Origin: an uncultured Saprospiraceae bacterium
GTDB lineage: Bacteria > Bacteroidota > Bacteroidia > Chitinophagales > Saprospiraceae
DNA length: 64,000 nt
Assembly (NCBI GenBank): GCA_938007965.1
Contig: CALLMH010000023.1
Coordinates: forward strand, 1-64,000
Direction of reading: 5' to 3'
Below the pieces are notes generated by a model. The model saw only the letters and a program-made list of their open reading frames with translations, was not told the origin of the DNA and did not search any database. The position numbers and the translations under genes were made by a program. Positions 1 through 19,634 of the stretch are shown one piece after another. The number at the start of each line of letters is the position of its first letter. Within the stretch, counting starts at the first letter, position 1.

Positions 1-890
1 TCGTCTCCATCTGGATCAGAACCATCTACTGACACATCTTCTAATTCGTCTCCCGCTGGAGTGACTCCTGTCGCAGTCGCTGAGTTCATGATCTCACTTC
101 CATTTGGACAGCCACATGCCTCTACCGTCAACAACACTGCACCAACATCTCCTACTGGCAGATCATCTAAGCCAGTGAGTAAATTATTATTACCCATACC
201 ATCGTAGTCTGCATTCACGGTGAAGTCATCTGATGTCAAGCTCGTTGTGAAGGAGGCACATTGCGTAAATCCTGCCGCAGCTAAATCATCTTCTATCTGT
301 AATGAGTCGATCCCTACGTTTCCGAAGTTCTCTATATTGATCTCATATATTACTTCTGTACAGCCATCTTCTCCTAGATCTACACTTACTACTCGCTTCG
401 CCGCTCCTATTGAGCCCATCTCTTCTAGTGTAATGTCGGTCGTTCCGTCTTCGTCTGGGTTGCCATCATTATCGTCTCCATCTGGATCCGAACCATCTAC
501 TGAGTCGTCACTTATTTGTTGCCCGCCAGGAGAAGTACCCGTTGCCGTCGCTGAGTTCATGATCATAGTCCCATTTGGACATCCACAAGCTTCTACTGTC
601 AATAATATTGCTCCAACATCGCCCGCTTGTATATCATCTAATCCTGTCAAGAGATCATTCGCACCCATTCCATCATAATCTGTGTTGACCGTAAAGTCAT
701 CACTTGTTACGCTTGTCGTAAATGAAGCACACGTTGTGAACCCTGCTGCAGCAAGATCATCCGTGACTTGTACAGAATCTATCGCTACGTCTCCAAAGTT
801 TTCTACATTGATCTCATAGATTACTTCCGTACAGCCATCTTCTCCTAGATCTACACTTACTACTCGCTTCGCTACACCAATGACTGGCAT
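1..890 (-). repeat. Tandem 471-bp (157-aa) DUF11-like repeats, about two copies visible, probably continuing left
   Basis: 'tcgtctccatctggatc(a/c)gaaccatctactga' occurs at 1 and 472. A 42-nt block 'acagccatcttctcctagatctacacttactactcgcttcgc' is identical at 360 and 831. Confidence 0.9.
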
Positions 891-3800
891 CTCTGATACA
901 GTTACAACAACTGTACAGCTATCTACATTTCCACACTCATCGGTAGTATAAAGAGTGACATCATTTGGTCCTACATTGGTAGCATTAAATGTTTCTTGAG
1001 AAATACTTCTTATCAACTGTGAATCATCGCTACAGATATCTGTTGTTCCACAGTCTAAACTATCTACGGTCAAAAATGCGATTCCATTTTGATCTAAACT
1101 GATAGTAAAGTCGGGACAACACATCATATTAGGCGGCGTGGTATCTTCTATAACAAATGTCGCTTCTGTTGTAGATGTATTGCCACAATCATCCGAGACT
1201 GTAAATCTATAAATCGAGGTACCAGTACTTCCACACTCATCATTTTCAGTTACAAGATCATATTCCCATGTAAATGTAGGACTACAGATATCAGTTGCCG
1301 CCGCTCCTCCGTTTGTATCCAACCAAGATTGTAGAGCGGCTACATTGCCAGCTCCATCACATTCTACCGTCATATCCATTGGTGATGGTATAATCACTGG
1401 AGGTGTTGTATCCTCTATCGTAAATACTGCAATAGATTGAGTGGAAGTATTGTCGCAATCGTCAGTTGCGAAGAAACCATAAGTATATATTACTGTACCT
1501 CCACAAAGTTCCTCAGTATCTATTAGTACGCTATCTATATTTATTGTAGCACTACAACCATCAGCGTATACTATTCCAGCATAATTATTTAACCATGCTG
1601 TTAATTCAGCTATATTGCCAGCTCCGTCACATTCCACTATTTCATTCATCGGTTCAGTAATCAGAGATGGAGCTGTTTCATCTACGACCGTTATAGTCGC
1701 CGTGGCTGTTGTCATATTATCACAGCCATCAGTAGCTGTAAAGGTTACCAAGGCAGACCCTGTCTCTCCGCATTGATCTGAGAGTGCAAGGTAATTATTT
1801 GAGTACGTTATAAAGCTACAATCATCTTCTGCCTCTCCATTTCCTTGAGCGGCCAACCAAGCCTCAATAAGTCCAGTCGCATCTGTCGCTGTACACTCTA
1901 TGGTGAGATCTTGAGGTGCAATCTCCCATATAGGTGGTGTATTATCATCTATCGTAAATGTTGCGGTCGTAGTACTAAAGTTTCCGCAGTTGTCTGTCGC
2001 TGTAAATGTCACTGTAACTCCATCTGCACCACACTCAGAATCTATTTCGGAGTAGTCATTTGTCCATACCACACCAGAACAAACATCTGTAGCTTCGGCT
2101 CCTCCATTCGTATTTAACCAACCTAGTAAATCAACACTATTGCTAGCACCATTACATTCGGCAGTTACGTCCATCGCCATAGTTGTTATAGTTGGAGGAG
2201 TGGTGTCTTCTATAGTAAATGTGGCTTGAGCTGTAGAGGTGTTGTTACATCCGTCACTCGCTGTGAATTCATAAGTTTTCGTTCCGTTAGTACCACAGCT
2301 ATCTGTAAATGCTATGAGCTCGAATGTCCATGTTACTGTGCCGCATATATCTGTCGCTGTACCAGTGTTCCCATTAGCAGCTAACCATGCATCAAGATCT
2401 GCAGTATTTCCAGCACCATCACATTCTACTATTTCATCTTCTGGAGCGGTATCTATAGTAGGCGGTGTGGTATCCTCAATAGTAAATGTAGCTAATGATT
2501 CACTTGAGTTTCCACATTCGTCGGTTACTATGAATGCATAGGTCATACTGTTGGTATTCTCGCATCCATCAACACTTGATCTCAATTCATTAGTAAATAT
2601 AAGGTCAGAAGCTGCCGAGCATTCGTCCATGGCCATACTCCCCGCACTATCAGCTAACCAAGTTGCTAAGTCAGCGGCGTTTGTTGGTCCACATTCTACA
2701 GTCATATCCATTCCTGTAGTAGTGATCGTAGGAACCGTCGTATCTACGATAGTCACTGTTGATGTCTCTGTTACTACATTGCCACAATCGTCTGTAGCTG
2801 TGAAAGTATAAGTGGTAACACCTGTATCCGCACATGCCGCTACAAATATTCCTGGGTCATCATTGGTCACTACTACTTCCGAGCACAAGTCCGTCGCTGT
2901 AGCTGATGCTAACCACTCTGCAATGACCACCGCATTGGTAGGATCGCTGCACTCTACAGTAATCGGATTAGGTACAGAAAGTATTGGATCTGTCGTGTCT
3001 TCTATAATAAATCGTATAGTTACAGGAGTTGATGCATTGCCGCATTCATCCGTTGCTACAAAGTCTACTTCATAGAATCCTATATCGTCAGCACATGGTT
3101 CATTTGTCACAAACATTATAGATTCGAAATTATTACTCCACGTTACTGAACCGCAATCTTCTGTTACATCATTATCTGTCAACCCACCATTGTTTTGCAA
3201 CCAAGCCAATAGCTCCGCAGTATTTCCGTCTCCATTGCACTCTACAACAGTATCCGCAGGATCAGAATTGATGACAGGTATTGTAGTATCCGTTATTTCA
3301 AAGTCAGCAAGACACGTAGTTGCATTACCTGCATCATCTGTAGCTGTGAATATGTATGTTGTCGTATTGCTGTTACCGCAGTCACTGATAGTATTCCATA
3401 TAGCGGACGTTATTGTTACGTCTGCATCACAATTATCCGTTGCCATTACTTCCGACAGCCAGTCTGCAAGTTCTATTGCATTGTTCGTGGAGCTGCATTC
3501 TACGAGTTCATCTTCAGGACACACAGTTATCATTGGTGCTTGACAATCTACTATTAGTACATCAAATGAACATGAAACTTCATTACCCATAGTATCGGTA
3601 AGGGTATAAGTCACTGTCGATAGTCCGAGCATAAACTCTACATCGTCTAATCTTGGAAGCGAATCTCCCATAGCTGTCGTAGTTCCAGTAATCGCATAAG
3701 AAAGATCTATGCCTCCGCAGTTGTCATTGAATATTGGGTCGAGAGAAGTATCAGCTGTCCATATACACGCATCCATGTCTGTACACATCGTCACTGTGTT

Positions 3801-6800
3801 ACTAGGACAAGCTATTGATGGCTGCTGACTGTCGACAACGGTTATATCAAAAGATGTGGTTGTCGTATTATTACATCCGTCTGTAGTTTCAAAAACAACT
3901 TCAGTAGTACCCACTGGGAACTCATCTCCTGAAACAAGAATATCTCCAGCGACATTGGCGATCTGAGTGACTGTTACTGGATTGTTACAATCTTCTGCTA
4001 TCGGCGTAGAGAATACTACACTTGTTTCACAATTATCTACATCTACATTGACCGTAATATTAGCAGGAGGATTGATAAAGGTAGGAGGTGTGGTATCGTC
4101 TTCATAGATGATATTACTTGTTGCCATTGCAATATTCCCACAATCATCACTTACTGTAAATGTTACTTCTAGTGATCCTCCACAAGCATTCGGTAGATTT
4201 CCATTATAATCAGTAGATAAAGCGGTAGAACCACATCCATCAGCAGTCGTTGCTTCATCAAGCCATTGTGTGATCTGAGTAGCAATATCTGTATCACCAC
4301 ATGCTATCATGAGATCCGCAGGTGCCACTATGGTCGGTAGCGTTTCATCTGTAATTGTATAGGTTGCAAATGCAGTATCTATATTCCCACATTCGTCAGA
4401 AGCAGTAAATAAGTAAACCGTGCTATTCGTATTTCCACATCCAGAAATTGTATTCCACACTTCATTAGTGATGACAGGCGTACCACATATGTCTGTCGCT
4501 GTTGCTGTAGCTATCCAATCGGCTATAGTCGTCGCCATTGCATCTTCACAATCAACAGTGATATCCATCGGCTCCGTGAGCTCAGGTGTTGTTTCATCTA
4601 TGATGATTACACTTGCGGTAGTTGTTGCTGTATTATTACAGTCATCTGTCACAGTAAATGTATATAGTGTAGAGGATGTATTTCCACAATCGTCAAAAGG
4701 ACTATCAGCGGTAAATGTCCATGAAAGTGGTTCGCTACATCCGTCTGTCGCCATAGCCATACCATTGACTGAAGTCCACGCGTCTATAGCTGTCATATAG
4801 TCGCCATCCATTACACATTCTAGTATCAGATCTTCAGCTGGCGCATTGATGGTAGGAGATATAGCATCTATTATAGTAACAGTAGAATTTGCCGTTACAC
4901 TTCTGCCGCAGTCGTCCGTAGATGTAAATATAACAGTATACACTCCTGTCATACCACAAGCGGCATCTATAGCACCTAGCCCACTATTTGTAATCGTTAC
5001 TGATCCACAATTATCAGTACCTGTAGCCTGTGCTAACCATGTATCTATGATTTCGTCATTGAGCTCTCCTTGGCACTCTAAAGTAATAGCATCAGGAACC
5101 GTCAATGTTGGATCCGTAGTATCTTCTATAGTAAATGTAGCTGCAGTAGTCGAGGTTGTACCACAAGCATCAGTCGCAGTAAATGTGACAAGTGCATCAC
5201 CCGTAGCTCCACATAGATTAGACAGTCCGGTAAAGTTATGTGTCCATGTGATATCTCCACACAGATCAGATGCCGCTGCTCCTCCTTGATTCGCTAGCCA
5301 TGTCAGAAGTGCTTGATTATTTCCTTCTCCATCACACTCTACTGTCATATCCATCGCCTCTGTATCAATCATAGGTGGAGTCGTATCTTCTATGACTACT
5401 TGTGCAGAGCATACTGATGTATTTCCGCTTGCATCGGTCGCTGTAAATGTATAGGTTCTAGTTTCTGTATCCCCACACATATTTTCCGTGAATGTGATTT
5501 CACTTACTATAGTAGGATCAGAACAATTGTCAGTCAATGTACTTGTAGCTGTAGCTATCCAAGCGGCTATCCGCGTATCATTAGTCCCGTCAGCACACTC
5601 TAAAGTGAGATCATCTGCTGGACAAGAAAATACGGGTGCTTCGCAATCTTCAACCACTACATTAAATGAACATGTAACTTCATTACCCATGGTATCCGTC
5701 AGCGTATATGTGACAGTAGAAGTTCCTAGCTGAAATTCAACAGCATCCAATCTAGGTAAGCTGTCTCCCATAGCAGTTGTAGCTCCCGTTACCGCATATG
5801 CAAGATCAAAGCCTCCGCAGTTATCTGCAAATATAGCGTCAGTGCTCATATCAGCTATCCAGAAACATTCGCCTGTATCGTTACATTTTACCACATCGTT
5901 TGATGGGCAGTCGAGGCTCGGTTCTTGAGTATCTACAATGGTGATATCAAAACTATCTTGAGCAGTATTTCCACAAGCATCTTCTGCCTGGAAAACTACT
6001 GTAGTTGTGCCTACTGGGAATTCATCTCCTGAAACGAGTAGCACACCATCTCCATTGGCGATCTGAGTCACAGTTACTGATTCATTACAGTCTGAACCTA
6101 TTGGCGTAGAGAAAACCACATTACTTTCACAATTATCTACATCAACATTGATAATCAAATCATCACTAATATTTACAAAAGTAGGGTCAATAGTATCTGG
6201 TTCTACAATAATCATGGCTGACGTGGTACTCATGGCACCACATGCATCCATCACGGTCCAGGTTACTGTCAGATTTCCTCCACAAAGATCAGGTACAGAC
6301 CCATCGTAGTCGTTCGTGACCGTTGATTCTTGGCAAGTTTCAGTAACAGTTACATCATTCAACCATGCTATAATCGCTGCAGATATGTCATCTCCACAAG
6401 CCACTGATAAGTTACCAGTATTATGAGCAATTGTCGGAGCTGTATTGTCTTCAATTATGAAGTCAGCTGTACCTGTTGTCTCATTCCCACAGTCGTCCGT
6501 AGCTACGAATATGTATGACTCAGTGATTGTTGTCACAGTCCCAACACAGGAAGTAGAAATATTTGGTGTGTTACTGGTTATAGTGACAGAACCTCCACAG
6601 TCGTCTGTACCACTAGCACTCATTAACCAAGCTGCTCTAGCTCCAGTTACGTCTCCATCGCACTCTACTGTATTATTGGCTGTAGGTGTTGTGAGATTTG
6701 GTGCAGTTTCATCGATTATGATCAAGTATGCAAATGCCGTAATTATATTTCCACAATCATCCTCCGCTGTGAAGGTATATTCAGTCGTACTTGTCTCTCC

Positions 6801-9800
6801 ACATTGATCTGTCATTGTACCTGCTGTGAATGTCAATGTGACATCTGTATCACAGTTGTCTATAGCTACTCCATTTCCAAATACAGCTTCCCAGTCAGAA
6901 ATCATCATGGCTCTATCCTCAGCTGTACATTCTACGATTAGATCCGTAGGAGGCACCAAAATGACGGGTTGATCGGTGTCCACTAATGTTATAGTTGCTG
7001 TCTCTGTTATGTTATTTCCACAAGCATCTGTTGCTGTAAATGTCACAATAACTGGCACATTACATGTAGTAGGAAGTGTGGCGTAATCATTAGTTATATC
7101 CACTGAACTACAATCATCAGAAGCTAAGGCCGTAACCAACCAGTTTTCAACTATACCTGCATTATTTGTATTGCCACATTCTAGTGTCAAATCAGTAGGT
7201 GGAGTAAGGTTTGGTTCCATAGTATCTGTAATGGTATATGTACCCAATGTGCTTATGGTATTACCACAGTCATCAGTAGCTGTAAATGTGATGTCAATAC
7301 CAGTCATACCCATACATCCGCTCGGCAATGTACCATCCCAATCATTAGTCCATACGACTGGTCCGCTACAGCCATCGCTAGCTGATGCTCCACCGTTTGT
7401 CCCTAACCATGAAAGGAAGTTGGTCGTATTGTCATCCATACAGTTGACCATCGGGCTAGTTACTGGAGTATCTATTACCGGATCCGAAGTATCTATGGTC
7501 GTATAGGTAGCTGTGCAGCTCGTACTATTGCCTGCGTCGTCTGTCACTACGAATACATAAGTTGTTGTCGATGTACCTCCACAAGCATTCGTCTGTGTAA
7601 GTATATAATAATCTTCGGTAAGATCTGTATCACAGTTATCAGCGCCTACTAATGTAGCTGCCCAAGTTTCAATATCTTCCATACCGCATTCAACCATAAG
7701 TTGATCTGTAGGACACGTATCTATAGTTGGATCTTCGCAATCTGTTATAGTTACCGTGAAGTTACAACTGGTCATATTGTTAGGGTTCGCATCATCTGTA
7801 GATGTTATCGTTACTGTGCTTGATCCCAACATAAATACATAACCTTCTATAACCGCTGGAGTTGATATCGAAGCATCAGGATTGACTACAGTGTAAGTAA
7901 GTGTAGAATTTCCACAGTCACTTGTTATTGCATTAACGGTTGCATCACTCGTCCACGTACAAGTACCTGCATCCGCACATTGGTTTATACTTGGAGGACA
8001 GATTAGGTCTGGATTTTGAGTATCTATTATTATAACATCCGTTGTACAGGTAGATTCATTTCCACAATTGTCAATAGCGGTAAATGTTACTGTTGTTGTT
8101 CCTATTGGAAATTCCGTGTTGGGTGCTGGTGACGTTTGTACTACACTCGCTACACCATTACAGTCTGTGGCTTCTGGAAATGGTAAAACTATATTAGCGC
8201 CGCAGTCATCGACGTCTACAGCAAAAGTAAGTTCTGCTACACAAGTCATAGCAGGTCCTTCGTTATCATCAGCGATGATAATATTAGCCATGGCTGTAGA
8301 GGTAGCTCCACATCCATCTACTACTGTCCAAGTGACTGGTATATTAGCTCCACAAGAATTCAATAGCATAGTAGCATCAAAATCATTCGTAATGGAGAGC
8401 TCGGTCACATCCGAGCAGTTGTCCATAGGTAATACATCGTCTAACCATGTTGCTACAATCAATGAAATATCTTGTCCACAGCTTACCATTAGATCTGAAG
8501 GCGCTGTAAGTGTTGGCGCCATATCATCTGTAACTATGAAGGTTGCAGTCTGACTGGCAGAGCTATTGCCACAACCATCTATCGCTGTAAATATATAGGT
8601 GTAGGTTGTAACAGAATTCGCTCCCATGCAAGACTCTTCGATATTAAGAAGTGCAAAGTCTACTATTGGAGCAGTGTCACAATCATCCATAGCTGTCGCA
8701 GTAGCTGCCCATCCATCAGGATCTAGAACATCGTCACAAGCTGCATTAGAAGCGGCTGTAGGCAATGTCAATATTGGCGCCTCTGTGTCTAATGTTATAA
8801 GGGATGCTACTTCAGAAATACTATTGCCACATGCATCAGTAGCTGTAAAAATGTACTCAGTAGTTGTAGTGCCACCGCAAGTTCCAACCACACCGTTAGG
8901 TAAGAAAGTGATCGTAGGCTCATTGCACATATCGGTAGCCGATCCTCCTCCGTTTGTAGCCACCCATGTATTTATAGCGGCCGTATTATCTACACCACAC
9001 TCCACAAAAAAGTCAGCTGGAGATGCAGTAATAACTGGTTCAGTAATATCATCGAGGGTTATAGTTCGTGTATCCGTGACCATATTTCCACACTCATCTT
9101 CACCAATAAAGGTAATCGTGACTGGAACATTACAAGTCATAGGCATTGCATTGTAATCATTGGTAATTGTAACCATAGAACAATCGTCCGAACCAGTTGC
9201 TGTCGCTAACCAATTTTGGATTATACCTTCGTTATTTGTATTTCCACATTCTAAAGTTAAATTAGAAGGTAATGAAAGAGCTGGTGGTGTAGTATCAGTA
9301 ATGGTATACATCCCCATTGTTGTAACATTATTCCCACAGTCATCTGTTGCTGTGAATGATATTGTAATAGTCGTCATGCCAGCACAACCGGATGGTAACG
9401 TACCGTCCCAATCATTGGTCCATACTACTGGTCCACTACAACCATCACTTGCACTTGCTCCACCATTGGTCCCTAGCCATGACAGGAAGTTTATGGTATT
9501 ATCGTCCATACAGTTCACCATAGGGTTAGTCGCAGGAGTGTCTATCGTCGGATCCGTAGAATCTACCGTATTGTACGTGGCTGTACAGCTAGCGCTATTG
9601 CCAGCCTCGTCTGTTACTATAAATACATATGTCGATGACGAAGTACCTCCACAACCATTTGTTTGTGTAAGTATGAAGAAGTCTTCTGTTAGATCTGTAT
9701 CGCAATTATCAGCACCTACTAAGGTGGCTGCCCAGGTTTCAATATCTTCCATACCGCATTCTACCAATAACTGATCTGCAGGACACGTTTCAATAGTTGG

Positions 9801-12800
9801 ATCTTCACAATCTGATATAGTCACTGAATAAGTACACACAGAGTTGTTCATAGGGTTGGCATCGTCAGTGGCGGTTATCATTACCGAACTAGATCCTAAC
9901 ATAAACGCATATCCATCTAACATCGTAGGAGTAGAAATACTAGCGTCTGGATTTACCACACTATAAGTAAGTGTAGTAGCACCACAATCTGATGCAATGG
10001 CATTAACTGAGGCATCGGCAATCCAAGTACAGGTTCCTGCGTCAGCGCACTCATTGATACTTGGCGGACAAACTACATCTGGATTTTGAGTATCAATAAT
10101 TTCTACGATTGTTTCGCAAGTGGAAGTATTTCCACAAGCGTCCCATGCTTGGAATGTTACTGTTGTAAGACCTATAGGGAACGCAGAATTGACCAATGGT
10201 ATGATCTGTCTTACGCTATCAACTCCATTACAATCTGTAGCGAGTGGTAGAGGCAATGTAATGTTGCTTTCACAATTATCTACATCGACTGCAAATGTCA
10301 GCATCTCCGTACATGATATGCTTGGTCCTTCATTATCATCGGCTATCACTATGTTAGCTGTAGCCGTACTACTAGCACCACATCGATCCACTACTGTCCA
10401 CACTACAGGTATAGTAGCTCCGCATGCATCTATAATCATAGAATCATCAAAGTCACTAGAAACAGATAGCTCTGTGATATTGTAGCAATTGTCTTCAGCT
10501 ACTACATTGTCTAACCAGTCTGCTACTAATAGGGATATATCTTGCCCACATGTGACCATCAGGTCAGCTGGAGGAGTCAGAGATGGTGCCACATTATCGG
10601 TCACTGTATAGTCTGCTGTTTGTGCTGCTGATTGATTTCCACAGTCATCTACAGCTGTAAATATATATGTATAAATAGTCTGACTACTCGTACCCGCACA
10701 CACTTGCTCTGTGTTAATGAGTGCATAGCTAACAGTCGGTGCGGTATCACAATCATCTGTAGCCATAGCGGTGGCTGCCCATGCATCTGGGTCAGGACTA
10801 GCATCACACGCTACTGTAGACGCAGCAGTTGGCAATACTAACGTCGGGTCCGTATTATCAACCACTATTAGATTTGCAACCGCAGATACAGAATTATTAC
10901 ATTGGTCTTCCGCTGTGAAAGTATAAGGTGTAACAGACGTTGCTCCACAACTAGGTTCAGGAGTGCCTGCGCTAAAGCTGATTACAACGGTACCACAACC
11001 ATCAATAAACATGCCGCCTCCATTTGATGTAATCCATGCCATAATCTCTGCATCGTTATCCATACCACACTCTACAATTAGATCTAATGGCTCATTCATA
11101 ACCAACGGCTTCTCTTCGTCTATTACAGTATACATTACTTCACAAGTATCAGATTCTGCAACCGTAGTACCATCTCCAGGATCATTGATTATGATTTGTC
11201 TTGTCAAGATGTATGGATCTCCCAGACATCCTTCTCCACCATTATCGGAATCATTGACAACTATGGTTGGTATACCACACGCATTTACGATTGTTGATAT
11301 CCCATCTATCCCATTGAACCACGCTACTGTACTGCCAGCATTGGGTATATCATTGATACATGGTAGCTCTACTTGTGTCAGTGGACACACTACCTCTAGG
11401 AAGCATTCAGGTGCATCTACTAATGCAGTATCTGTATCCATAACTTGTCCGCCGTTTGGTCCTTTTCCTGAAACATTTCCAGCATTGATTATAGGGTCTA
11501 CTCCAGTCTGAGAGTTGACTTCTACAGTCATCTGCACGGTGATAGTTTCTCCTGGATTGAGACAACCTGTAGTACCATTGAATATGGTATCTATTACTCC
11601 ACCATTATAGCCCATTACTACAGCTGGAGTCTCCGCAGCATCTGTAACCGCTACTGTCATTGGAGCAGATGTGATACCTACAAAAGTACCTCCCAGCTGC
11701 TCTGTCAAGTCATCTTCGAGCTGTATACAAGTAATCTTTTGATTCCCGGGGTTTGTGATCACGAACTCAAAAGTAGCATCGAAGTTACCTTCTGTACCAC
11801 TCTGAGCCGGAACCACACTGATAGTAGATTTCTCTAAGTCTATCTGTGGAATTGGGATAAATGCAGGATCACTGTCATCTTCGTCTGTATCAGGGTCGGT
11901 ATCTTGAGCGTTACCAGTACCATCACCACCATTACTTCCATCTGTATCACTTCCTGGATTACCTCCAGCGTCATTATTAGGGTCATTATCGGCTTGACTA
12001 TCTATATCATTACCTGTGATATCTTGTCCATTAGTATTTTCAAAATACCCAATCTCAGCAATATTTACAAACTGGTCTGCAGCTGCCATTTGTAATTCTA
12101 AAAATATAGTTGTAGTTGCTGATTCTCCAGTGGCCAGTGGGCCAGGTATAGTATCCATGGCAGTACTGCCCATTAGCATCCAATCAGGATTAGCGGCCGC
12201 ATCAAAGATAAATCCACCTGGTATGAAGTCATTCACTTTGATATTTTGAGCGGTTACGTTCCCTTGATTGGTTACCGTAATAGCGAATTCTATCACATCG
12301 CCGTAATCATAAGGTCCTGGCGTAATAATATCTTTGACTAGCGCAAGATCGACGATGGTAATCAGCTCTGGATCTTGATCATCTTCGTCTGTATTCGGAT
12401 TGGTAGATCCAGGTGCACCAGTTCCATTTCCATCAAGACTATTATCTGACCCAGTATTGACAACCCCTCCACCATCGTTTGTAGGATCATTATCGGGTGT
12501 ACTATCAATGTCTTCTTGAGATCGATCTACTCCCAGTGTATCTGTAAATGAAAATATCTCCGAGGTATTGAGGTATGCACCCACTTCTGATGACATTATC
12601 AACTCTAAATCTAAAGGAATCACAGTCATATCCCCAGCCACCAGTGGACCATCTATCAAGTACATCAGTGTATCTGGTGCAGTCTGCATCCAGTCAGGAT
12701 TAGCTGCAGGGTCAAATGCAAACCCAGTTGGTAAAAAGTCATTTATCTTAATATTAGATAAATCTTGGAAACCTTGATTCGCAACAGTAATATTAAAAGT

Positions 12801-15800
12801 AAGTACATCTCCGTAATTATAAGGGCCGGGAGTTGATACTTGTTTTATTAAGGCGGCATCGTAAATACATGGTTGAATATCTAGTATACTATCTGACATA
12901 ACACAGTCTTCATCTATAAGTAATACCGCATCAGCAATAAGGTCAGCAGGCATAGCATTATCAATGATTACAGTCTGCGTGGTATCTCCAGAAAGCGTAT
13001 TTATTTCTATAAGGAATGTCTGTCCAAGTATATCTAACTGTATAGTATCTACTCCACCCAGAAATGCATAAGTATAAACAGCATTAGTCCAATTTATATC
13101 TACGGTTACTTCTCTTGTGTGGGTAGTACCATCAAAGATACAATCACTGACTTCTGAAATCTGTACATCTAGACTACAATCAGGAATAAATCCAGCATCC
13201 ACAGTAGGATTGAATGTACCATTAGGAAGGAAATAGCTACCTGTAAGCCCAGTATCAGGATCTGCATCACTATCTATAGTATCATCTCCACCTATGTCTG
13301 TGGTAGTATATATAAAACCGTCTGGCATTACAAACTCTACTATGTAATTACCAGCTACGAGATCATCAAATATATAAAAACCATTAGCATCTGTCGTAGT
13401 GACCGCTATGTGATTACCTGGTGTAGTATTATTTGCATTATATAGGAAAACAATGACGTCAGGGATACCTGGTTCGCCCATTTCTTGAAGTCCATTTTCA
13501 TTTAAGTCAAACCATACTGTATCACCAATAGCAGTACCCGGCGCACAAACTGCACCTATTAATAATACCTCTTTAGTAGCTGCACAGCCATTATCATCTG
13601 TGTAGGATAAGTTGTATGTAGTGGCACCAGAAGAGACTGGGTCTAGTATAGGTCTTGCTGCCATAGGGTCATCAAGGTTGGTTACTGGGGACCACATGAA
13701 ATTACTTCCGCCTACAGGTCCAGGCAACTCTACATCTTTACCTTCACAAGCTGGCACAGTTGCAGTTCCCTCTATTTCTTGGAATACTGTAACCTGCAAT
13801 GTATCAAATGTAAAACACTCTCCAAATGAAGATCGTAGTGCATAATCCCATATGATATCGCTGCCTGAATTGTTATCAAATTCAAAATCGACCATGGTCG
13901 TATCGATATCTGACAATGCACCCAAATCTGAGCCGTCGATACTAATCCATTCGTAAGCAAGATCTTCTACGGGGCTAGGCCCTATCTCTATTACTGTTTC
14001 CGAACAAACGGAAACATCCATTGCGAAATCATTTTGGATTTCCACTTTAGTTTGGTTGGATACTTCTAGATTACACACACATGCTGAAGATGGGTTTATA
14101 ACGGCTAGAGCATTACAGATTCCGGTAGGTGGAACATCAACTACACCTGTAACTAGAGTCATTCCCCCGCTTGGTATTGTTACACTATTTAAAGTAGTTA
14201 CAACAAGATCGTCTATAAGACTATCTAATAATCCGTTGTCATTTACATCATCCCATAGTTCTATGACCAAATCATTCATAGCTTCTTGAGGAACTAGACC
14301 ATTGTTCATGATCTTGATCTCATACTCTATACTGGCATTAGCTGGCGGCATAGATATAAGTGTCAGGTCAGTAGATAAAATCGATAGGTCTGGTTTATCT
14401 ATACGTATTTGCACTACATCTTCACCACTGAGGACTCCGATGCTGCATTCTTCGTCACCACAAAATGCATTGGTGGTACTGAATGTCTGTATGAGCATAT
14501 CTGATCTACCACAAAGCTGACCTACATCCATAGAAGTCACATCTATAGTAAAGTTGATGATATCTTGATTAGCCAGTCCTTCTACTACTGGCACAGTGAC
14601 ACAAGTTAATCCATTAACGTCTGTAACTATTGGAGCTCCTGCTGGGGCATTATTGACTGGGCTGTAGGACATATCTACATATCCTATACCAGCTGGTAGC
14701 GTTATTTTTATAGTATCCCCATCCATGGTAAGTACTCCTGGATCAGCATCTATTTGTAGTTCTATCTCCACGGTAGCTCCATCGTCATTACATGGATTGA
14801 GAGTCAAATCACTAAGCAGTAGATCTATTTCGTATTCTGGTGTGATATCTTTGATTCGTAACCGCGGACTTCTACTTCTAAGGGGAGCTAGATTGTCTCC
14901 ACATAAATCCGTAGCTGTAGTTGTAAATCGCGCCCTAGAACCAGATTTATAGTCACAGGTAGTGATGGTATTCCACCTTACGAGTATGATATTGAGATTA
15001 TCGAGAGCACCGAGCGAGCCTATGAGACCTACGCTGTCAAGTGTTGTATCTAATGAAGTAACATCAATCCGATAGTTGTTACCCGAATAATTATCTAATT
15101 CATCAACAAATGTCCAGGTAGTATCGCTACCATCAGCAGGTACAGGATAAGCGATCTCGAAAGAACCATCCAGATAATCCATACCGCCAGGAATTTCAAA
15201 ATCAAAGATGATATCATTGACATTACCAAGGGCTGTACTAGAAAATCTATGGATAAAGCAAATTGTATCACAAAGTGCGTATTCTGCAGGGGGAGTTGGT
15301 TTTATAAGCTGTCCTGTATAGGCACTTTCTACAGATATAAAATCTATAAAGCTAGGGTCATTGCAGGTTGCTTCTTGTACTGTAGGGGGATACTCTACAC
15401 AGTCCCATCCTCCAGTGAATGACAAGGTCTGAGGATCACAATTGGTAACATTGACACAGATTTCAAATGAGCGGGACGATGCGCTTTCTGTATTACCCAA
15501 TTGATACACACCGAAATTTGTACTAGGTATTAAGGTACTCATACCATCTGTAGTTTCTGTTACAGATGTAATAACTAGTCCTCCTGTAACAGCATCTATA
15601 TTTAACCAGGAAAAAGGAGCATCGATATTGCTAACATTATTGAGATCGACCGTTACACAAGACATAGGCTCAAATAATTCGACTTCTGAGGACGTAGCTG
15701 ATACAATCAATGTAGGCCCTCCTGTGTAGCCAAAATTTTCGCACGATAGATCCGACTCAATTTTATCTACACAAAATACTTGATCATCTACATCTGTGAG

Positions 15801-18800
15801 CAACTGGGTACATGCTTCGTAGTCTGCTATTTCACTTTGACAGTTCCCTCTAATCCCTGGGTAGAAATAAATATTATAACCTCCGTCAGTACCTTTTTCA
15901 CTTATTTCATCTACGTCGAGAGAAAGTATGTAGTCTTTTACAAAGAAGCAAAGCGTATCCCCTGTCTCAATGAAGAAATTGCCATGAATTCCTCCATTTT
16001 GCATGGCTACTACTTCACGATCAGGACCTAATCGTTGAAAAACTCTAAGACCAAAATCTTCCAGACTGTATTCCAATTCTGGAGGTTTTACAAAGGTGTA
16101 TTTATCCGGTATCCCAGGACTACGAATTTCATTACAGAATTCATCAAACCCAAGTGTACCGTAGTGTAAGTCATATCGAATTACAAATGGAGATATATCA
16201 CATCCTCCAAAATCACGACCTGAAATAACGACACTTTCAAATTCTCTGATCCCAATTTGATTCATGGTCTCAATCAGAAAATTACAACTAAACCGCGTTC
16301 CATCATCGTATACGTCATCGCTTAGATAGAAATCAGGCTGATATACTACCGGTTCAGATTGTACATTAATTAGAGGTTCTTTGGGAGAATAAAAAACACA
16401 CAGAAATAATGAATCACCATCAGCATATTGAAAACCATCAAAATCACTACAAGCGAGCGAAGTCATTGAAGGTACAGAAAGGTCTGTAATGAGTAATTCT
16501 CCATCTGCAAACTGACTTAGTGCATTACATGTAAGTGTCATACCAGAACTCGCATCCCATACAGAATATTCTGCACCAACTATCGTAAAGTTTTCTGTCT
16601 GTACGTCCAACTCTAAAAATGCATAATCCCAAAAATGTGGTGTAGGAGGATCTATGCCATCATTGACTATCCCAGTTATAGTAAGCTTCAATGAATCTCC
16701 TTGGACAAATCTATCACCTTTTGCAGTCGTGGCATCTGCCATGGTAACTCCATCATCGGGGATGAAATCATTATCGGCATCAAGAAAACAGAAATTTGTT
16801 CTTTCTATGTTTAAGTCAACCGCAGTAAGTCCATCACACGGCCCGCAAGGAGGGCAATTATAAATGACATTAAAATCTGTAGTACAATTGACATTGGGTT
16901 CGCAAGCTGCTGCACAAGACGGATCAGCAAAAAAGAAGTTATCCATAGTTATATTAGAAAGCTGTGGACATCCAGTTGGTTTCTCACTACAATCTACATC
17001 GAAGCATATCTCTATACTTCCAAATATGTTTCTATTTATTTGAAATATGACTTCATCTGCCCCACCTGCACCATTATCTGTATTTTGAGTAATGGTCAAT
17101 CCATTATATGGATTTCCCGCATTGTTTAACAATCGTGCACTCGTGATGTCAATTCCACAATCTACACTTAGTCGTGATTCAAAGTATGCATCAGGATATT
17201 CCGCTGTAAACAAAGTACTCATCCAAGTAGTAGAGCCGCTTGTGATTGTGTATTCTATACAACTTGAGCCTGACACATTAGATTCTCCTTCGAAGAATCC
17301 TAGAAGACGAGCATCGAACTGACGGAATTCCACGTCGTCATTATTATTCAATATCGCATCACATGGATCGGACCAAGTCAGCTGTGTCACAAGAGAATAG
17401 TAAATATTATCTACAACACAACTTCTGCAATCGCAACCGTGCTGTAGTTGATAAGTGGCATATACGGTCTCTCCAGGTTCGAGGTTGACATCTTCTAGCA
17501 GGGCATCCGCATTTCTAAATAGATCGGCACCTACTACGCATTGTCCATTTACTCCTGAGCTCCCTTGAGCTACGGTGGTGTTTTGAACTGACCCTGCCGT
17601 GAACGGACCCGTGGGACTGAGGCTCCACATAATACTACTACCGACTATAGATCCTGGATTTCCCCCTTGTCGAATGTCAAATATGATGTCCTTTGCTATT
17701 CCTTCGCCTTCATTGGTAATTGCGAGTGCTAGGGTAGTATTTTCTTCTGACCAGCACGCAGGTCGATCTATTAGTGGTGTATATTCTTCGTAGACTAGAT
17801 CAGGAAGTGCAAACCCATAATCTATACCTGTGGTGGATATATTACTTTCGCTACATACTATGGAAGTACCACAGCCATATCTTGCAGCTCTTCGTATGGG
17901 GTCAGGTGTACCAAGATCACATTCTATTCCTTCCCATACTTCACATATGACTAGAGACTCATTTTCATCAAGTGCTCCATCTCCATTACCACTTCCAGCC
18001 CCTGTGGTATGATCGCTCATAATATCCGCTGATGTTACAATATAAAAGGTAGTATCGCCATTGGTACCATCGGGAGTTAATGACATACCATTAATCAGCA
18101 CATCAACATTGGTAACTGTTCCAGGATTAACTACCCAGTATGTAAAATCTTGGATTGATCCAGAGCCTGCATTAACCATAGGCACCTTTATTGTATCTTG
18201 CACCCCGAGTATGGCATCAAATATGTTACCTGGTCGAATATTCCCAGTGATAAGCGGAGATAAAATACTGAGTTCTGCAGCGAGCACACTTATCTGAGAT
18301 GACGTCTCTGTAGCGAGTGTATTCACTCCTTCACATAATTCATCCCAATCTACATCTACTGTGTAATCTACAGCACTCGCAGTAAAACCACAAACCACTG
18401 ATAGCTCAAGTGTAAAAGTGACAGCTTCACCATCTTCCAAATCGCCAATAGTTAGAATATCCGTAGCCGGATCATAAGAAATTGGATCACCACTAACTGT
18501 CATAAGGGAATTGTAATCTATCAAAACACCATCTGGTAGCGTAAGTGCCGCTACGGCATTTCGAACTATGAAATCATCCCCGTTACTATTTTCTATAGTA
18601 ATGGTGATCTCGTCGGGAGGCCCACAAACAAAAAGTTCGGAAGTGTTGTCTGTTGTAATGGTAATGGGGTCAGAAGGTGCGATAAGCGTAAGTACTGTAG
18701 ACGGGAAATCACTATCTGGCTTTTCGGCACAGTCAAGATCACCGTTGCATCCATATGAAGCCCTCCTAAATAAATCCTCTGGTGTAACGCAACTGGTTAC

Positions 18801-19541
18801 AATCCAGTTTTCGGTAACATCTGCAGTTCCTCCTATGATGAGCGCACCTAAATCAAAACAAGTATATCCAGGTTGCATAATGGGAGATGGAGCTATTGAA
18901 GATCCTCCGACTTCTATACTAAGCAAATCAGCATTTCCATTATCTGCAACACAATAGTATACATTCTCAGCATCAGCCGTACCATTGTTTTCAACTGTAT
19001 TGACAACTTCAAATTCAAATCCAATTACACCGTTAATACCATTGGGAGATGAAGAAGTGATATTGATGTCCGGAGCATCAATCGTGTATTGGATTGATTG
19101 AATAACTTGAGCTTCGACACCTGATACTTGATAATCAAACAATGCTCTTACAATCGGAGTCATATCTAATGCGCCTTCACAACTTAAAGAAAAATCAGCT
19201 GTAAACTCAATTATATCACCTACAAAAAGAGTATCATTGAATGCGAAGTTGATATCATTAGTATTGGTCAAGGTAGGTCCAGCGATCTGTGTGAAGACAC
19301 CAGAAAACGTAAGCCCGTCAGTGCCACTTAAATCTATGCTTACATTACCAGTGTCTATTGAAGATCCTGTGTCGTTTTCTATTGTGACGGAGAGCGAAAT
19401 CTCATCAGCACAAACTTCAATCGGATCTACAAATGATAGACTAACACTTTGCGCATTAGATATTACACAACAAGCGAAAATTAACAGTACACCTAAGTAT
19501 ACATTTCTGATGCAGTTTTGAATTCTATTGATCATTATCAT
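1..19541 (-). CDS. Giant secreted multidomain repeat protein (DUF11-like, SdrD_B-like, HYR/HYR-like modules), C-terminus beyond the window
   Basis: Minus-strand start at 19541 (or 19535) gives MIMINRIQNCIRNVYLGVLLIFACCVISNAQS, a signal peptide. The codon phase at 371-369 (..EDGCTEVIYEINIENFGN..) equals the phase at 19541. The ORF track lists no terminating minus-strand ORF in this frame between 1 and 19541, so the frame is open off the left edge (at least 6513 codons). Confidence 0.93.
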   Translation of the reverse strand, partial: MIMINRIQNCIRNVYLGVLLIFACCVISNAQSVSLSFVDPIEVCADEISLSVTIENDTGSSIDTGNVSIDLSGTDGLTFSGVFTQIAGPTLTNTNDINFAFNDTLFVGDIIEFTADFSLSCEGALDMTPIVRALFDYQVSGVEAQVIQSIQYTIDAPDINITSSSPNGINGVIGFEFEVVNTVENNGTADAENVYYCVADNGNADLLSIEVGGSSIAPSPIMQPGYTCFDLGALIIGGTADVTENWIVTSCVTPEDLFRRASYGCNGDLDCAEKPDSDFPSTVLTLIAPSDPITITTDNTSELFVCGPPDEITITIENSNGDDFIVRNAVAALTLPDGVLIDYNSLMTVSGDPISYDPATDILTIGDLEDGEAVTFTLELSVVCGFTASAVDYTVDVDWDELCEGVNTLATETSSQISVLAAELSILSPLITGNIRPGNIFDAILGVQDTIKVPMVNAGSGSIQDFTYWVVNPGTVTNVDVLINGMSLTPDGTNGDTTFYIVTSADIMSDHTTGAGSGNGDGALDENESLVICEVWEGIECDLGTPDPIRRAARYGCGTSIVCSESNISTTGIDYGFALPDLVYEEYTPLIDRPACWSEENTTLALAITNEGEGIAKDIIFDIRQGGNPGSIVGSSIMWSLSPTGPFTAGSVQNTTVAQGSSGVNGQCVVGADLFRNADALLEDVNLEPGETVYATYQLQHGCDCRSCVVDNIYYSLVTQLTWSDPCDAILNNNDDVEFRQFDARLLGFFEGESNVSGSSCIEYTITSGSTTWMSTLFTAEYPDAYFESRLSVDCGIDITSARLLNNAGNPYNGLTITQNTDNGAGGADEVIFQINRNIFGSIEICFDVDCSEKPTGCPQLSNITMDNFFFADPSCAAACEPNVNCTTDFNVIYNCPPCGPCDGLTAVDLNIERTNFCFLDADNDFIPDDGVTMADATTAKGDRFVQGDSLKLTITGIVNDGIDPPTPHFWDYAFLELDVQTENFTIVGAEYSVWDASSGMTLTCNALSQFADGELLITDLSVPSMTSLACSDFDGFQYADGDSLFLCVFYSPKEPLINVQSEPVVYQPDFYLSDDVYDDGTRFSCNFLIETMNQIGIREFESVVISGRDFGGCDISPFVIRYDLHYGTLGFDEFCNEIRSPGIPDKYTFVKPPELEYSLEDFGLRVFQRLGPDREVVAMQNGGIHGNFFIETGDTLCFFVKDYILSLDVDEISEKGTDGGYNIYFYPGIRGNCQSEIADYEACTQLLTDVDDQVFCVDKIESDLSCENFGYTGGPTLIVSATSSEVELFEPMSCVTVDLNNVSNIDAPFSWLNIDAVTGGLVITSVTETTDGMSTLIPSTNFGVYQLGNTESASSRSFEICVNVTNCDPQTLSFTGGWDCVEYPPTVQEATCNDPSFIDFISVESAYTGQLIKPTPPAEYALCDTICFIHRFSSTALGNVNDIIFDFEIPGGMDYLDGSFEIAYPVPADGSDTTWTFVDELDNYSGNNYRIDVTSLDTTLDSVGLIGSLGALDNLNIILVRWNTITTCDYKSGSRARFTTTATDLCGDNLAPLRSRSPRLRIKDITPEYEIDLLLSDLTLNPCNDDGATVEIELQIDADPGVLTMDGDTIKITLPAGIGYVDMSYSPVNNAPAGAPIVTDVNGLTCVTVPVVEGLANQDIINFTIDVTSMDVGQLCGRSDMLIQTFSTTNAFCGDEECSIGVLSGEDVVQIRIDKPDLSILSTDLTLISMPPANASIEYEIKIMNNGLVPQEAMNDLVIELWDDVNDNGLLDSLIDDLVVTTLNSVTIPSGGMTLVTGVVDVPPTGICNALAVINPSSACVCNLEVSNQTKVEIQNDFAMDVSVCSETVIEIGPSPVEDLAYEWISIDGSDLGALSDIDTTMVDFEFDNNSGSDIIWDYALRSSFGECFTFDTLQVTVFQEIEGTATVPACEGKDVELPGPVGGSNFMWSPVTNLDDPMAARPILDPVSSGATTYNLSYTDDNGCAATKEVLLIGAVCAPGTAIGDTVWFDLNENGLQEMGEPGIPDVIVFLYNANNTTPGNHIAVTTTDANGFYIFDDLVAGNYIVEFVMPDGFIYTTTDIGGDDTIDSDADPDTGLTGSYFLPNGTFNPTVDAGFIPDCSLDVQISEVSDCIFDGTTHTREVTVDINWTNAVYTYAFLGGVDTIQLDILGQTFLIEINTLSGDTTQTVIIDNAMPADLIADAVLLIDEDCVMSDSILDIQPCIYDAALIKQVSTPGPYNYGDVLTFNITVANQGFQDLSNIKINDFLPTGFAFDPAANPDWMQTAPDTLMYLIDGPLVAGDMTVIPLDLELIMSSEVGAYLNTSEIFSFTDTLGVDRSQEDIDSTPDNDPTNDGGGVVNTGSDNSLDGNGTGAPGSTNPNTDEDDQDPELITIVDLALVKDIITPGPYDYGDVIEFAITVTNQGNVTAQNIKVNDFIPGGFIFDAAANPDWMLMGSTAMDTIPGPLATGESATTTIFLELQMAAADQFVNIAEIGYFENTNGQDITGNDIDSQADNDPNNDAGGNPGSDTDGSNGGDGTGNAQDTDPDTDEDDSDPAFIPIPQIDLEKSTISVVPAQSGTEGNFDATFEFVITNPGNQKITCIQLEDDLTEQLGGTFVGITSAPMTVAVTDAAETPAVVMGYNGGVIDTIFNGTTGCLNPGETITVQMTVEVNSQTGVDPIINAGNVSGKGPNGGQVMDTDTALVDAPECFLEVVCPLTQVELPCINDIPNAGSTVAWFNGIDGISTIVNACGIPTIVVNDSDNGGEGCLGDPYILTRQIIINDPGDGTTVAESDTCEVMYTVIDEEKPLVMNEPLDLIVECGMDNDAEIMAWITSNGGGMFIDGCGTVVISFSAGTPEPSCGATSVTPYTFTAEDQCNNSVSAVANLIVVDNTDPTLVLPTAASTVACDASPDPDAWAATAMATDDCDTAPTVSYALINTEQVCAGTSSQTIYTYIFTAVDDCGNQSAAQTADYTVTDNVAPSLTPPADLMVTCGQDISLLVADWLDNVVAEDNCYNITELSVSSDFDDSMIIDACGATIPVVWTVVDRCGASSTATANIVIADDNEGPSISCTEMLTFAVDVDNCESNITLPLPLATDCNGVDSVRQIIPLVNSAFPIGLTTVTFQAWDACGNTSTCETIVEIIDTQNPDVVCPPSINECADAGTCTWIADASVNAIASDCGATTLTYSVVNPDASISTPTMLDGYAFMLGSSSVMITATDDANPMNNSVCTYSVTISDCEDPTIETCPADQLLVECGMEDIETWAATLVGADNCDTDLTEDFFILTQTNGCGGTSSSTYVFIVTDEAGNSASCTATYNTVDSTDPTIDTPATNPMVNCMDDNTINFLSWLGTNGGASASDGCSGPVVWTNDWDGTLPSGCAGMTTITISFTATDDCGNNVTTMGMYTITDTTPPALSLPSNLTLECGNTNNEGIIQNWLATATGSDDCSMVTITNDYNAMPMTCNVPVTITFIGEDECGNMVTDTRTITLDDITEPVITASPADFFVECGVDNTAAINTWVATNGGGSATDMCNEPTITFLPNGVVGTCGGTTTTEYIFTATDACGNSISEVASLITLDTEAPILTLPTAASNAACDDVLDPDGWAATATAMDDCDTAPIVDFALLNIEESCMGANSVTTYTYIFTAIDGCGNSSASQTATFIVTDDMAPTLTAPSDLMVSCGQDISLIVATWLDDVLPMDNCSDVTELSITNDFDATMLLNSCGANIPVTWTVVDGCGATSTAMANIIIADDNEGPAMTCVAELTFAVDVDDCGANIVLPFPEATDCNGVASVVQTSPAPNTEFPIGTTTVTFTAIDNCGNESTCTTDVIIIDTQNPDLICPPSINQCADAGTCTWTSDATVNAITSDCGNSTLTYTVVNPDASISTPAVIEGYVFMLGSSTVTITSTDDANPNNMTSCNFTVTITDCEDPTIDTCPTDQLMVECGMEDIETWAATLVGADNCDTDLTEDYYILTQTNACGGTSTTTYVFVVTDDAGNSTSCTATYTTIDTSDPVIDTPVTSPMVNCMDDNTTNFLSWLGTNGGASASDGCSGPVVWTNDWDGTLPSGCMGMTGIDITFTATDDCGNTISTLGTYTITDTMEPNLTPPTDLTLECGNTNNAGIVENWLVTALASDDCSSVDITNDYATLPTTCNVPVIVTFTATDACGNNITETATITLVDTDQPVILVPPTDLIVECTAEDRAMMISDWEAVFGNGVAIDNCDTDVTLTFTAGTMTDQCGETSTTEYTFTAEDDCGNIITAFAYLIIIDETAPNLTTPTANNTVECDGDVTGARAAWLMSASGTDDCGGSVTITSNTPNISTSCVGTVTTITESYIFVATDDCGNETTGTADFIIEDNTAPTIAHNTGNLSVACGDDISAAIIAWLNDVTVTETCQESTVTNDYDGSVPDLCGGNLTVTWTVMDACGAMSTTSAMIIVEPDTIDPTFVNISDDLIINVDVDNCESNVVFSTPIGSDCNESVTVTQIANGDGVLLVSGDEFPVGTTTVVFQAEDACGNTAQDSFDITIVDTQEPSLDCPSNDVVKCNDTGECFWIADMSTDAIFADNCGGFDLAYAVTGATTAMGDSLPRLDAVEFQLGTSTVTYTLTDTMGNEVTCSFNVVVEDCEAPVFSCPADDLTLECADGTNDTRIAAWIATATSTLTDNCSDPTIVSEITFTENMCGDTETRTYTFTATDASGNTSVCSAQVVIEDTTPPMIDTEAMDMTVECDGEGNNQALLTWLANQGGAAASDLCGDITWTHNFTGLSNLCGATGDALVTFTATDACGTTSTTAATFTIEDTTDPTLTVPDAITLECQGELNDEIIDTWLAQATGTDNCGSVTITNSGLGAIDAACGMTGVYTVIFTSTDDCGRSVTANSTVTIIDAISPTINAPAEDLILECVMDGDYMTAIDAWTSVNGMAMATDGCSEPLSWTFTADSPFDDCGNTSSTLYTFTVTDDCNNTATTTASVIIIDETTPELTEPMDITVDCEDAMATTIADWIATATATDICGTPVITNEVWNTISGCGNTNSTVYLFTASDECGNIDTAFATYTITDETLPTIVAPADLMIACGDTDIATQITQWLDEATTADGCGSTALSTDYNGNLPNACGGSLEVTFTVSDDCGNIAMATSNIIYEDDTTPPTFINPPANITVNVDVDNCETSVVFSTPIAEDCNNPVTVTQIANVAGDILVSGDEFPVGTTEVVFETTDGCNNTTTTSFDITVVDSQQPSIACPSNTVTMCTDMDACIWTADTSLDPIFNDNCGGIDLSYAITGTTTAMGDSLPRLDDVEFMLGLSTVTYTLTDTMGNEVSCSFDVLIVDCQAPMITVCPEDELVECSSTNNAIELADWLSEVMATDNCDADVTITSAIWNTISDCGNSNTTTYIFTATDDAGNATTCLADFEITDTTIPVINSDPADTVVECNGDGNTAELLAWLQNNGGLTDNDVTEDCGSVTWSNNFESIMFVTNEPCADDIGFYEVDFVATDECGNASTPVTIRFIIEDTTDPILSVPNPITVECSDPTNAVVIAEWLASATATDLCSEVVVTNDDPGIFVAACADTGVTTYTFTATDDCGNVVTETSTVTIVDTTVPTITTTGMDMTVECGPTNAADLATWLADSAGSMAMDECSAASDLIFTNELRSSVDGCENTNSMTYAFIVTDECGNSSESLATFTIEDTTPPTIDTAPEDEIVECDGAGNTADLDAWLAANGNTGTATDICGTVTWTFELIAFTDSCGTNGTKTYEFTASDGCNNTSTAQATFTIEDTTPPTITTMAMDVTAECNGASNSVDLLGWLNTNGGAEATDVCSGVVWTNDYSEIDSECGADGVTVTFTATDNCGNFSTTTATFTIDDNTPPIWEIAPQDLTIECTATDATGLIEAWLAAQGNGEAEDDCSFITYSNNYLALSDQCGETGSALVTFTATDGCDNMTTATATITVVDETAPSLITEPMNEIVECDGAGNIAELTAWLNNYAGIVYADGCSATINIDSVLIDTEELCGGTVIYTYGFFATDDCDNTSTQSIAVFTIEDTTPPVIIPSPMDMTVECDGAGNVAALQSWLDTNGGAAATDICSPTFTWEYDLVTENDECGSTGTSIYRFTVSDDCGNTSTTEATFVIEDTTPPNMMCCPDFTISLDQNGIAFLTVDSLDCGTTDICSDDSQLIRSISQETFNATNVGPNDVTLYTTDECGNVDSCTVVVTVSEMPVIGVAKRVVSVDLGEDGCTEVIYEINVENFGDVAIDSVQVTDDLAAAGFTTCASFTTSVTSDDFTVNTDYDGMGANDLLTGLDDIQAGDVGAILLTVEACGCPNGTMIMNSATATGTSPGGQQISDDSVDGSDPDGDDNDGNPDEDGTTDITLEEMGSIGAAKRVVSVDLGEDGCTEVIYEINIENFGNVGIDSLQIEDDLAAAGFTQCASFTTSLTSDDFTVNADYDGMGNNNLLTGLDDLPVGDVGAVLLTVEACGCPNGSEIMNSATATGVTPAGDELEDVSVDGSDPDGD
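890..11130 (-). repeat. Array of about 40 HYR/HYR-like modules (mean about 262 bp)
   Basis: Recurrent translated pattern (minus) 'VECDGAGN..LDAWLAANGN..ATDxCG.VTWT...DxCG..GSxTYxFTATDxCGNxSxxxATFTIEDTTPP', e.g. YAFIVTDECGNSSESLATFTIEDTTPP near 2470-2550. Count is manual and approximate. Confidence 0.85.
3544..11116 (-). repeat. Higher-order repeat of about 2.1 kb (about 8 modules each), four marker copies
   Basis: A distinctive HYR module (..CIWTADTSLDPIFNDNCGGIDLSYAITGT..STVTYTLTD..) begins at 3544, 5644, 7738 and 9808 (spacings 2100, 2094, 2070). Flanking modules also align at the same offset, e.g. 7261/9331 and 8101/10171. Confidence 0.85.
11850..12900 (-). repeat. Two DUF11-like repeats, 504-bp period
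   Basis: 'cctcca...tcattatcgg' aligns at 11962 and 12466 and 'tcttcgtctgta' at about 11881 and 12385. Translated: ..YDYGDVIEFAITVTNQGN..DDIDSTPDNDPTNDGGG.. Confidence 0.8.
13185..13530 (-). other. Single SdrD_B-like domain within the giant protein
   Basis: Minus translation GDTVWFDLNENGLQEMGEPGIPDVIVFLYNANNTTPGNHIAVTTTDANGFYIFDDLVAGNYIVEFVMPDGFIYTTTDIGGDDTIDSDADP..NPTVDAGF. Confidence 0.85.
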
Positions 19542-19634
19542 ATGATATGGTTTAAGCAATGCATGATGACGCATTGCCACTTTATTAGCTGGTCTTAAAT
19601 AGGGAGATCTTCGGAGAAGGGCGAAAAGGTTGTT

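Follow-up and report, generated by a model that had tools for sequence, protein, structure and literature searches.

A 64,000-nucleotide stretch of DNA from an uncultured Saprospiraceae bacterium (the window) carries on its minus strand a gene whose protein has at least ~9,000 amino acids, is probably exported through the T9SS and is, in our judgement, likely to be a surface-anchored adhesive filament. In this reading, Sec and T9SS would export the protein, PorU would fix its base to the cell, a stalk of HYR-like domains would hold a binding head outward, and the stalk would vary through the gain and loss of eight-domain cassettes. Export and architecture are well supported, and we infer surface anchoring and the length of the fibre. 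Giant bacterial surface proteins are a known class, and UniProt contains more than 41,000 proteins of at least 5,000 amino acids, most of them eukaryotic (PMC11573180). The first-pass annotation rightly placed this protein among the larger bacterial ones, yet such a size is not rare here, as the same genome encodes a relative of 7,993 amino acids.

The minus-strand frame is open from an ATG at 19541 to base 3, with 6,513 codons and no stop, just as the first-pass annotation had reported, and a GTG at 19580 is a possible earlier start. Over the same stretch the two other minus-strand frames contain 584 and 620 stops, and the chance of a stop-free frame of this length, given the base composition, is ~10^-189. 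The frame also has unequal G+C at the three codon positions (50/44/28%), and its N- and C-terminal blocks, compared with those of relatives, show dN of 0.17–0.29 while dS is saturated or, at 1.8, near-saturated, which together indicate that the frame is coding. On these grounds a frameshift or chance frame was rejected; the open frame is a real gene. It had been described as missed by the ORF track, and it is indeed absent from the default list, but only since the default omits frames left open at a sequence end; a list that permits such frames includes it. Similarly, no C-terminus is in sight within the window, as had been stated, but the cause is the contig edge, base 1 of the window being base 1 of its contig (C23).

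Extending the frame leftward located the C-terminus on a second contig of the same assembly, C4. The reverse complement of C23:1-141 is identical to C4:1-141, without another full match among the 113 contigs, so that the overlap is confined to these two contig ends. On C4 the frame remains open for 2,561 codons, 47 of them within the overlap, up to a stop at C4:7687. The joined protein has at least 9,028 amino acids (957 kDa, pI 4.05, 3.6% cysteine), in agreement with the earlier expectation that it would exceed 6,513. We infer that the exact 141-base overlap is the mark of a k=141 assembly graph between adjoining contigs; k141 appears in the contig names of some relatives. Since the longest exact repeat within the joined gene is just 44 bases, the break probably reflects another, nearly identical copy of the DUF11 unit at this point, or else a strain variant. 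The figure of 9,028 amino acids is a minimum at the junction, where the assembler left the contigs unmerged and at least one extra DUF11 repeat, each unit being 157 amino acids long, may be absent. The DUF11 block, at 780 amino acids, is nearly as long as in two orthologues (~776 aligned columns in G061 and ~785 in G017), suggesting that few or no units are missing.

Relatives in other assemblies support both the frame and the join. An N-terminal alignment scan found 15 loci, all in Bacteroidota and nearly all labelled Saprospiraceae, and the stop-free frames of relatives extend over 7,918 (CALFDU010000115.1), 9,227 (JAHDCU010000009.1), 8,204, 7,774 (contig edge), 7,255 and 6,676 (contig edge) amino acids, free of the in-frame stop for which an independent assembly was to be checked. 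Three of these proteins (G061, 7,918 amino acids; G067, 9,227; G017, 7,255) contain the head, an SdrD_B/DUF11 middle, the stalk, the DUF11 block and the base in one frame, unbroken in single contigs, so neither the frame nor the join is an artefact of the present assembly; both are real. Identity between G061 and the window protein is 67% in the head, 76% in the middle, 69% in the DUF11 block and 42% in the base, and a genome of the same genus (G001) has the head and base, on two contigs, at 65% and 75%. No conserved gene neighbourhood was found in the flanks examined.

Table 1 Features of the giant gene within the window (aa, residues of the encoded protein).
Feature	Position	Strand	Remarks
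Giant ORF	3..19541	-	6,513 codons in window, continues on C4; joined 9,028 aa
Signal peptide, aa 1-30	19452..19541	-	judged by eye
N-terminal head, aa 31-2000	13542..19451	-	conserved in orthologues; predicted Ig-like beta-sandwich string
SdrD B-like domain PF17210, aa 2004-2118	13188..13532	-	112 bits
DUF11 PF01345, aa 2398-2514	12000..12350	-	better of two stretches; Pfam scan
Stalk, 39 tandem HYR-like domains, aa 2808-6217	891..11120	-	Pfam and own profile
Eight-domain cassette 1, aa 2808-3497	9051..11120	-	spacing/register analysis
Eight-domain cassette 2, aa 3498-4187	6981..9050	-	spacing/register analysis
Eight-domain cassette 3, aa 4188-4891	4869..6980	-	spacing/register analysis
Eight-domain cassette 4, aa 4892-5599	2745..4868	-	spacing/register analysis
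Final seven stalk domains, aa 5600-6217	891..2744	-	register degraded
DUF11-type repeats, aa 6221-6513 of ~780-aa block	3..881	-	cross contig edge

Within the joined protein (window portion in Table 1), a signal peptide recognised by eye, with positive residues, a hydrophobic core and an SNAQ end, is followed by the head, the SdrD_B/DUF11 region, the HYR stalk, the DUF11 block (to about residue 7000) and a base of ~2,000 amino acids (about 7000-9028), which holds the sorting domain and nine further HYR-like domains. The base also has a P-domain and a dockerin segment under its threshold, both of them weak or minor matches. An acidic linker, DGSDPDGDDNDGNPDEDGTTD, lies between DUF11 units at joined residues 6349, 6506 and 6662 (one of them a variant) and recalls calcium-binding loops. 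In the Pfam scan the stalk domains exceeded the curated cut-off for HYR (PF02494) or HYR_4C (PF23237), and a structural model of the stalk was confident and all-beta (pLDDT 87.5), its nearest solved structures being tandem cadherin domains and an RTX-adhesin extender (6xi1), at TM 0.38-0.46. The earlier description of the protein as filament-like is borne out by this long tandem array of beta-sandwich domains and its model. Sequence searches of the stalk and base against solved structures (PDB) found nothing except the weak dockerin segment in the base, and no catalytic or lectin domain was recognised in the giant protein.

The stalk repeats a set of eight different domains in a fixed order. 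Mean identity among its domains is 30-34% at spacings from 1 to 19, except at 8 (48.8%) and 16 (38.2%), and none of 2,000 shuffles attained the identity seen at spacing 8. The same spacing stands out in three orthologues (G061, 41%; G067, 73%; G068, 73%) and in the paralogue on contig C52 (47%), and nearly every domain of these proteins best matches the same phase in the window protein, showing that the eight-type order predates the split of both orthologues and paralogue. Among orthologues that keep the register, the stalk has from 27 to 55 domains. A simple account is that the register is kept as recombination pairs only copies eight domains apart, which alone are sufficiently similar; a structural cause is conceivable. 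HYR runs with a four-domain period occur in two other giants (G002:C3 and G001:C28, with 51% and 49% identity at offset 4).

Cysteine numbers per domain type are mostly kept as well, running in order 4, 4, 4, 5 or 3, 5, 6, 4, 4. In an alignment of 18 cassettes, three cysteines of type 3 never vary and two more are jointly present in 12 rows and jointly absent in 6, a pair behaving as a disulfide would, and type 4 has five invariant cysteines; the odd counts in these neighbouring types suggest one inter-domain bond. It is conceivable, as a tentative extension, that the cassette is a structural unit locked by a disulfide between types 3 and 4 once per cassette, giving the fibre a period of ~35 nm, and that the ~2,000-residue head is a new binding module that also sits on proteins far shorter than this one, in no fewer than eight families of the order.

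Other giants indicate that the stalk is replaceable. One orthologue of 8,204 amino acids (G065, 3709-28323) keeps the head and DUF11 middle and has no HYR-like domain and only 1.0% cysteine, its whole stalk type having been exchanged; in G017 and G069 HYR-like domains occur in short runs only. In the second, 7,993-residue giant of the same genome (C52, joined stretch 8528-32509, minus strand), 60 HYR-like domains follow one another, for the most part in the eight-type register of the window protein, and a type A sorting domain is present. In DNA sequence, G061 is 65% identical to the window gene in the main stalk blocks, and this paralogue is closer, at 71-73%. Recent gene conversion between the paralogue and the window gene was considered and rejected, the longest exact match between them being 23 bases.

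The head matched nothing in Pfam, whether as residues 1-2000 of the window protein or as the 590-1590 region of 16 relatives, and had no relative by sequence in the PDB. Its model is all-beta and of moderate confidence (pLDDT 73, pTM 0.47). A specific function could not be taken from this model, as Foldseek returned just general Ig-like strings (for example PrgB, 8beg) at TM 0.17-0.25. Of 398 genomes of the order, 66, from eight families, had matches to a profile of residues 590-1590, and 13 genomes matched most of the profile. Many partial matches sit in ORFs of ~1,700-2,200 amino acids, out of a full range of ~1,700-9,200, as if the head also occurred without a long stalk. A literature search on HYR domains with T9SS, on Saprospiraceae giants and on higher-order repeats in adhesins yielded nothing relevant, and the head and the eight-domain block look undescribed, giant fibres as a kind being already known.

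Export through the T9SS is probable from several features. The end of the joined protein bears the type A sorting domain that a search for type A or B domains had been meant to find (TIGR04183, 29.3 bits against a cut-off of 23, residues 2484-2559 of 2561 in the C4 frame); PF18962 scored 17.9 bits on the same C-terminus, below its cut-off of 27. SprA (1,999 bits) is encoded on the same contig, 58 kb from the giant gene (C23:77690-85030), and PorU (1,213 bits) in the same 4.19-Mb genome, where nearly 150 type A sorting domains and 23 of type B exceed the cut-off, a large secreted repertoire; the two components and the number of type A domains point to a T9SS with much cargo. Together with the apparent signal peptide, the sorting domain and these components uphold the original view of a secreted protein.

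Two other genes in the window were noted. In the secreted product of the first (22694-29926, plus strand), which has 2,410 amino acids, 17 domains are SdrD B-like and a type A sorting domain scores 54 bits. The product of the second (43752-46655, minus strand), of 967 amino acids, combines a domain resembling vanadium chloroperoxidase with four metal-binding motifs of the MopE type; it also carries a weak type A sorting domain and is perhaps a secreted haloperoxidase.

These features can be combined into a proposed mechanism. The giant protein would enter Sec via its signal peptide and be carried across the outer membrane through SprA by the T9SS, whereupon PorU would remove the type A C-terminal domain and fix the base to the surface. 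The base and DUF11 block would lie near the cell, and the stalk would keep the head off it by roughly 150 nm or more, at ~4 nm per domain. This head-out orientation is suggested by the C-terminal position of the sorting domain, by the architecture and by T9SS biology as described in two reports (PMC10202324, PMC9143113). The conserved head would then bind a surface, a polymer or another cell; adhesion is consistent with the data and is proposed from the architecture, T9SS biology and the likeness of the stalk model to cadherin and RTX domains. Between species, the length of the stalk would shift by the gain or loss of whole cassettes.

Among known systems, the RTX-adhesin extender of Aeromonas hydrophila (6xi1) is the nearest bacterial structure to the stalk model, and there too a run of beta-sandwiches keeps an adhesive end at a distance from the cell. 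The two differ in that RTX adhesins are secreted by the type I route and have linkers made rigid by calcium, whereas the present protein has T9SS export, domains with four to six cysteines each and a repeat of higher order; identity is only 13-14%. The stalk domains are like those of HYR/HYR_4C proteins, but here an eight-type order is kept across species, and the head and base fall outside those families. With the Sdr/MSCRAMM adhesins of staphylococci the protein has in common one SdrD B-like domain; it differs from them in having a single such domain, a T9SS sorting domain where they carry a wall anchor, and a score of 59.6 bits, far under the MSCRAMM cut-off of 2,500.

That the giant is a gliding adhesin, driven along the cell by the machinery of gliding as SprB and RemA are in Flavobacterium johnsoniae, is an unlikely alternative. 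RemA is of the type A kind, so the type A domain does not rule out a gliding role, and a GldJ relative adjoins PorU, although its 343 bits fall under the cut-off of 458. SprB is a comparable giant, a 6,497-residue filament on the Bacteroidota surface exported by Sec and T9SS (PMC9870892, PMC12635249), and a review describes a gliding adhesin that requires PorV for secretion, as does type A cargo (PMC10202324). Unlike SprB, however, our protein has a type A and not a type B sorting domain, no PorP/SprF alongside, a different head and the eight-domain HYR cassette stalk. None of the 11 PorP/SprF matches in the genome lies on C23 or C4, no type B match was found on either contig, and Pfam scans of the window protein and the C4 part contained no SprB repeat family. 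Membership of the SprB family was rejected, as the type B domain (TIGR04131) is absent and the cluster has no cognate PorP/SprF gene.

There is a similarly small chance that the giant is released or built into the extracellular matrix, or acts as a scaffold gathering secreted enzymes, instead of being a cell-anchored adhesin. The type A domain leaves release into the medium open, and the base contributes its P-domain and, near the C-terminus, a weak dockerin-type I segment (Pfam E 0.0085; PDB 4uyp, E 0.0016). This dockerin match is, however, under its Pfam cut-off, no cohesin partner was identified, and a single long stalk with a conserved head fits a tether better.

That the giant is a prey-capture structure seems very improbable. 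Predators that catch other bacteria occur among Saprospiraceae and their relatives, and T9SS hooks have been reported in one predatory relative, Aureispira, but head, stalk and base match no solved structure except through the weak dockerin segment, and the literature on ixotrophy yielded passing mentions only. Least credible by far is an assembly artefact in which two genes were joined via a common repeat, for while the contigs were left unmerged and related genomes contain many relatives of the base, the overlap is exact and in frame, the exact repeats within the gene and with its paralogue are short, and in orthologues from other assemblies a single frame spans the head, stalk, DUF11 block and base.

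Descriptions of giant T9SS proteins usually present them as strings of similar domains. In the proposed filament the stalk instead shows a higher-order repeat, eight distinct domains whose fixed order and register are kept despite differences in copy number. The cassette system offers a route to studying how a filament changes length in steps of ~2.1 kb and whether the register is structural or a mere by-product of recombination among like copies. The head is a large, conserved and unnamed extracellular module, present at least in part in about one-sixth of the genomes sampled from the order. Saprospiraceae are common in sludge and on marine particles, and the head provides a concrete target for finding what they hold on to.
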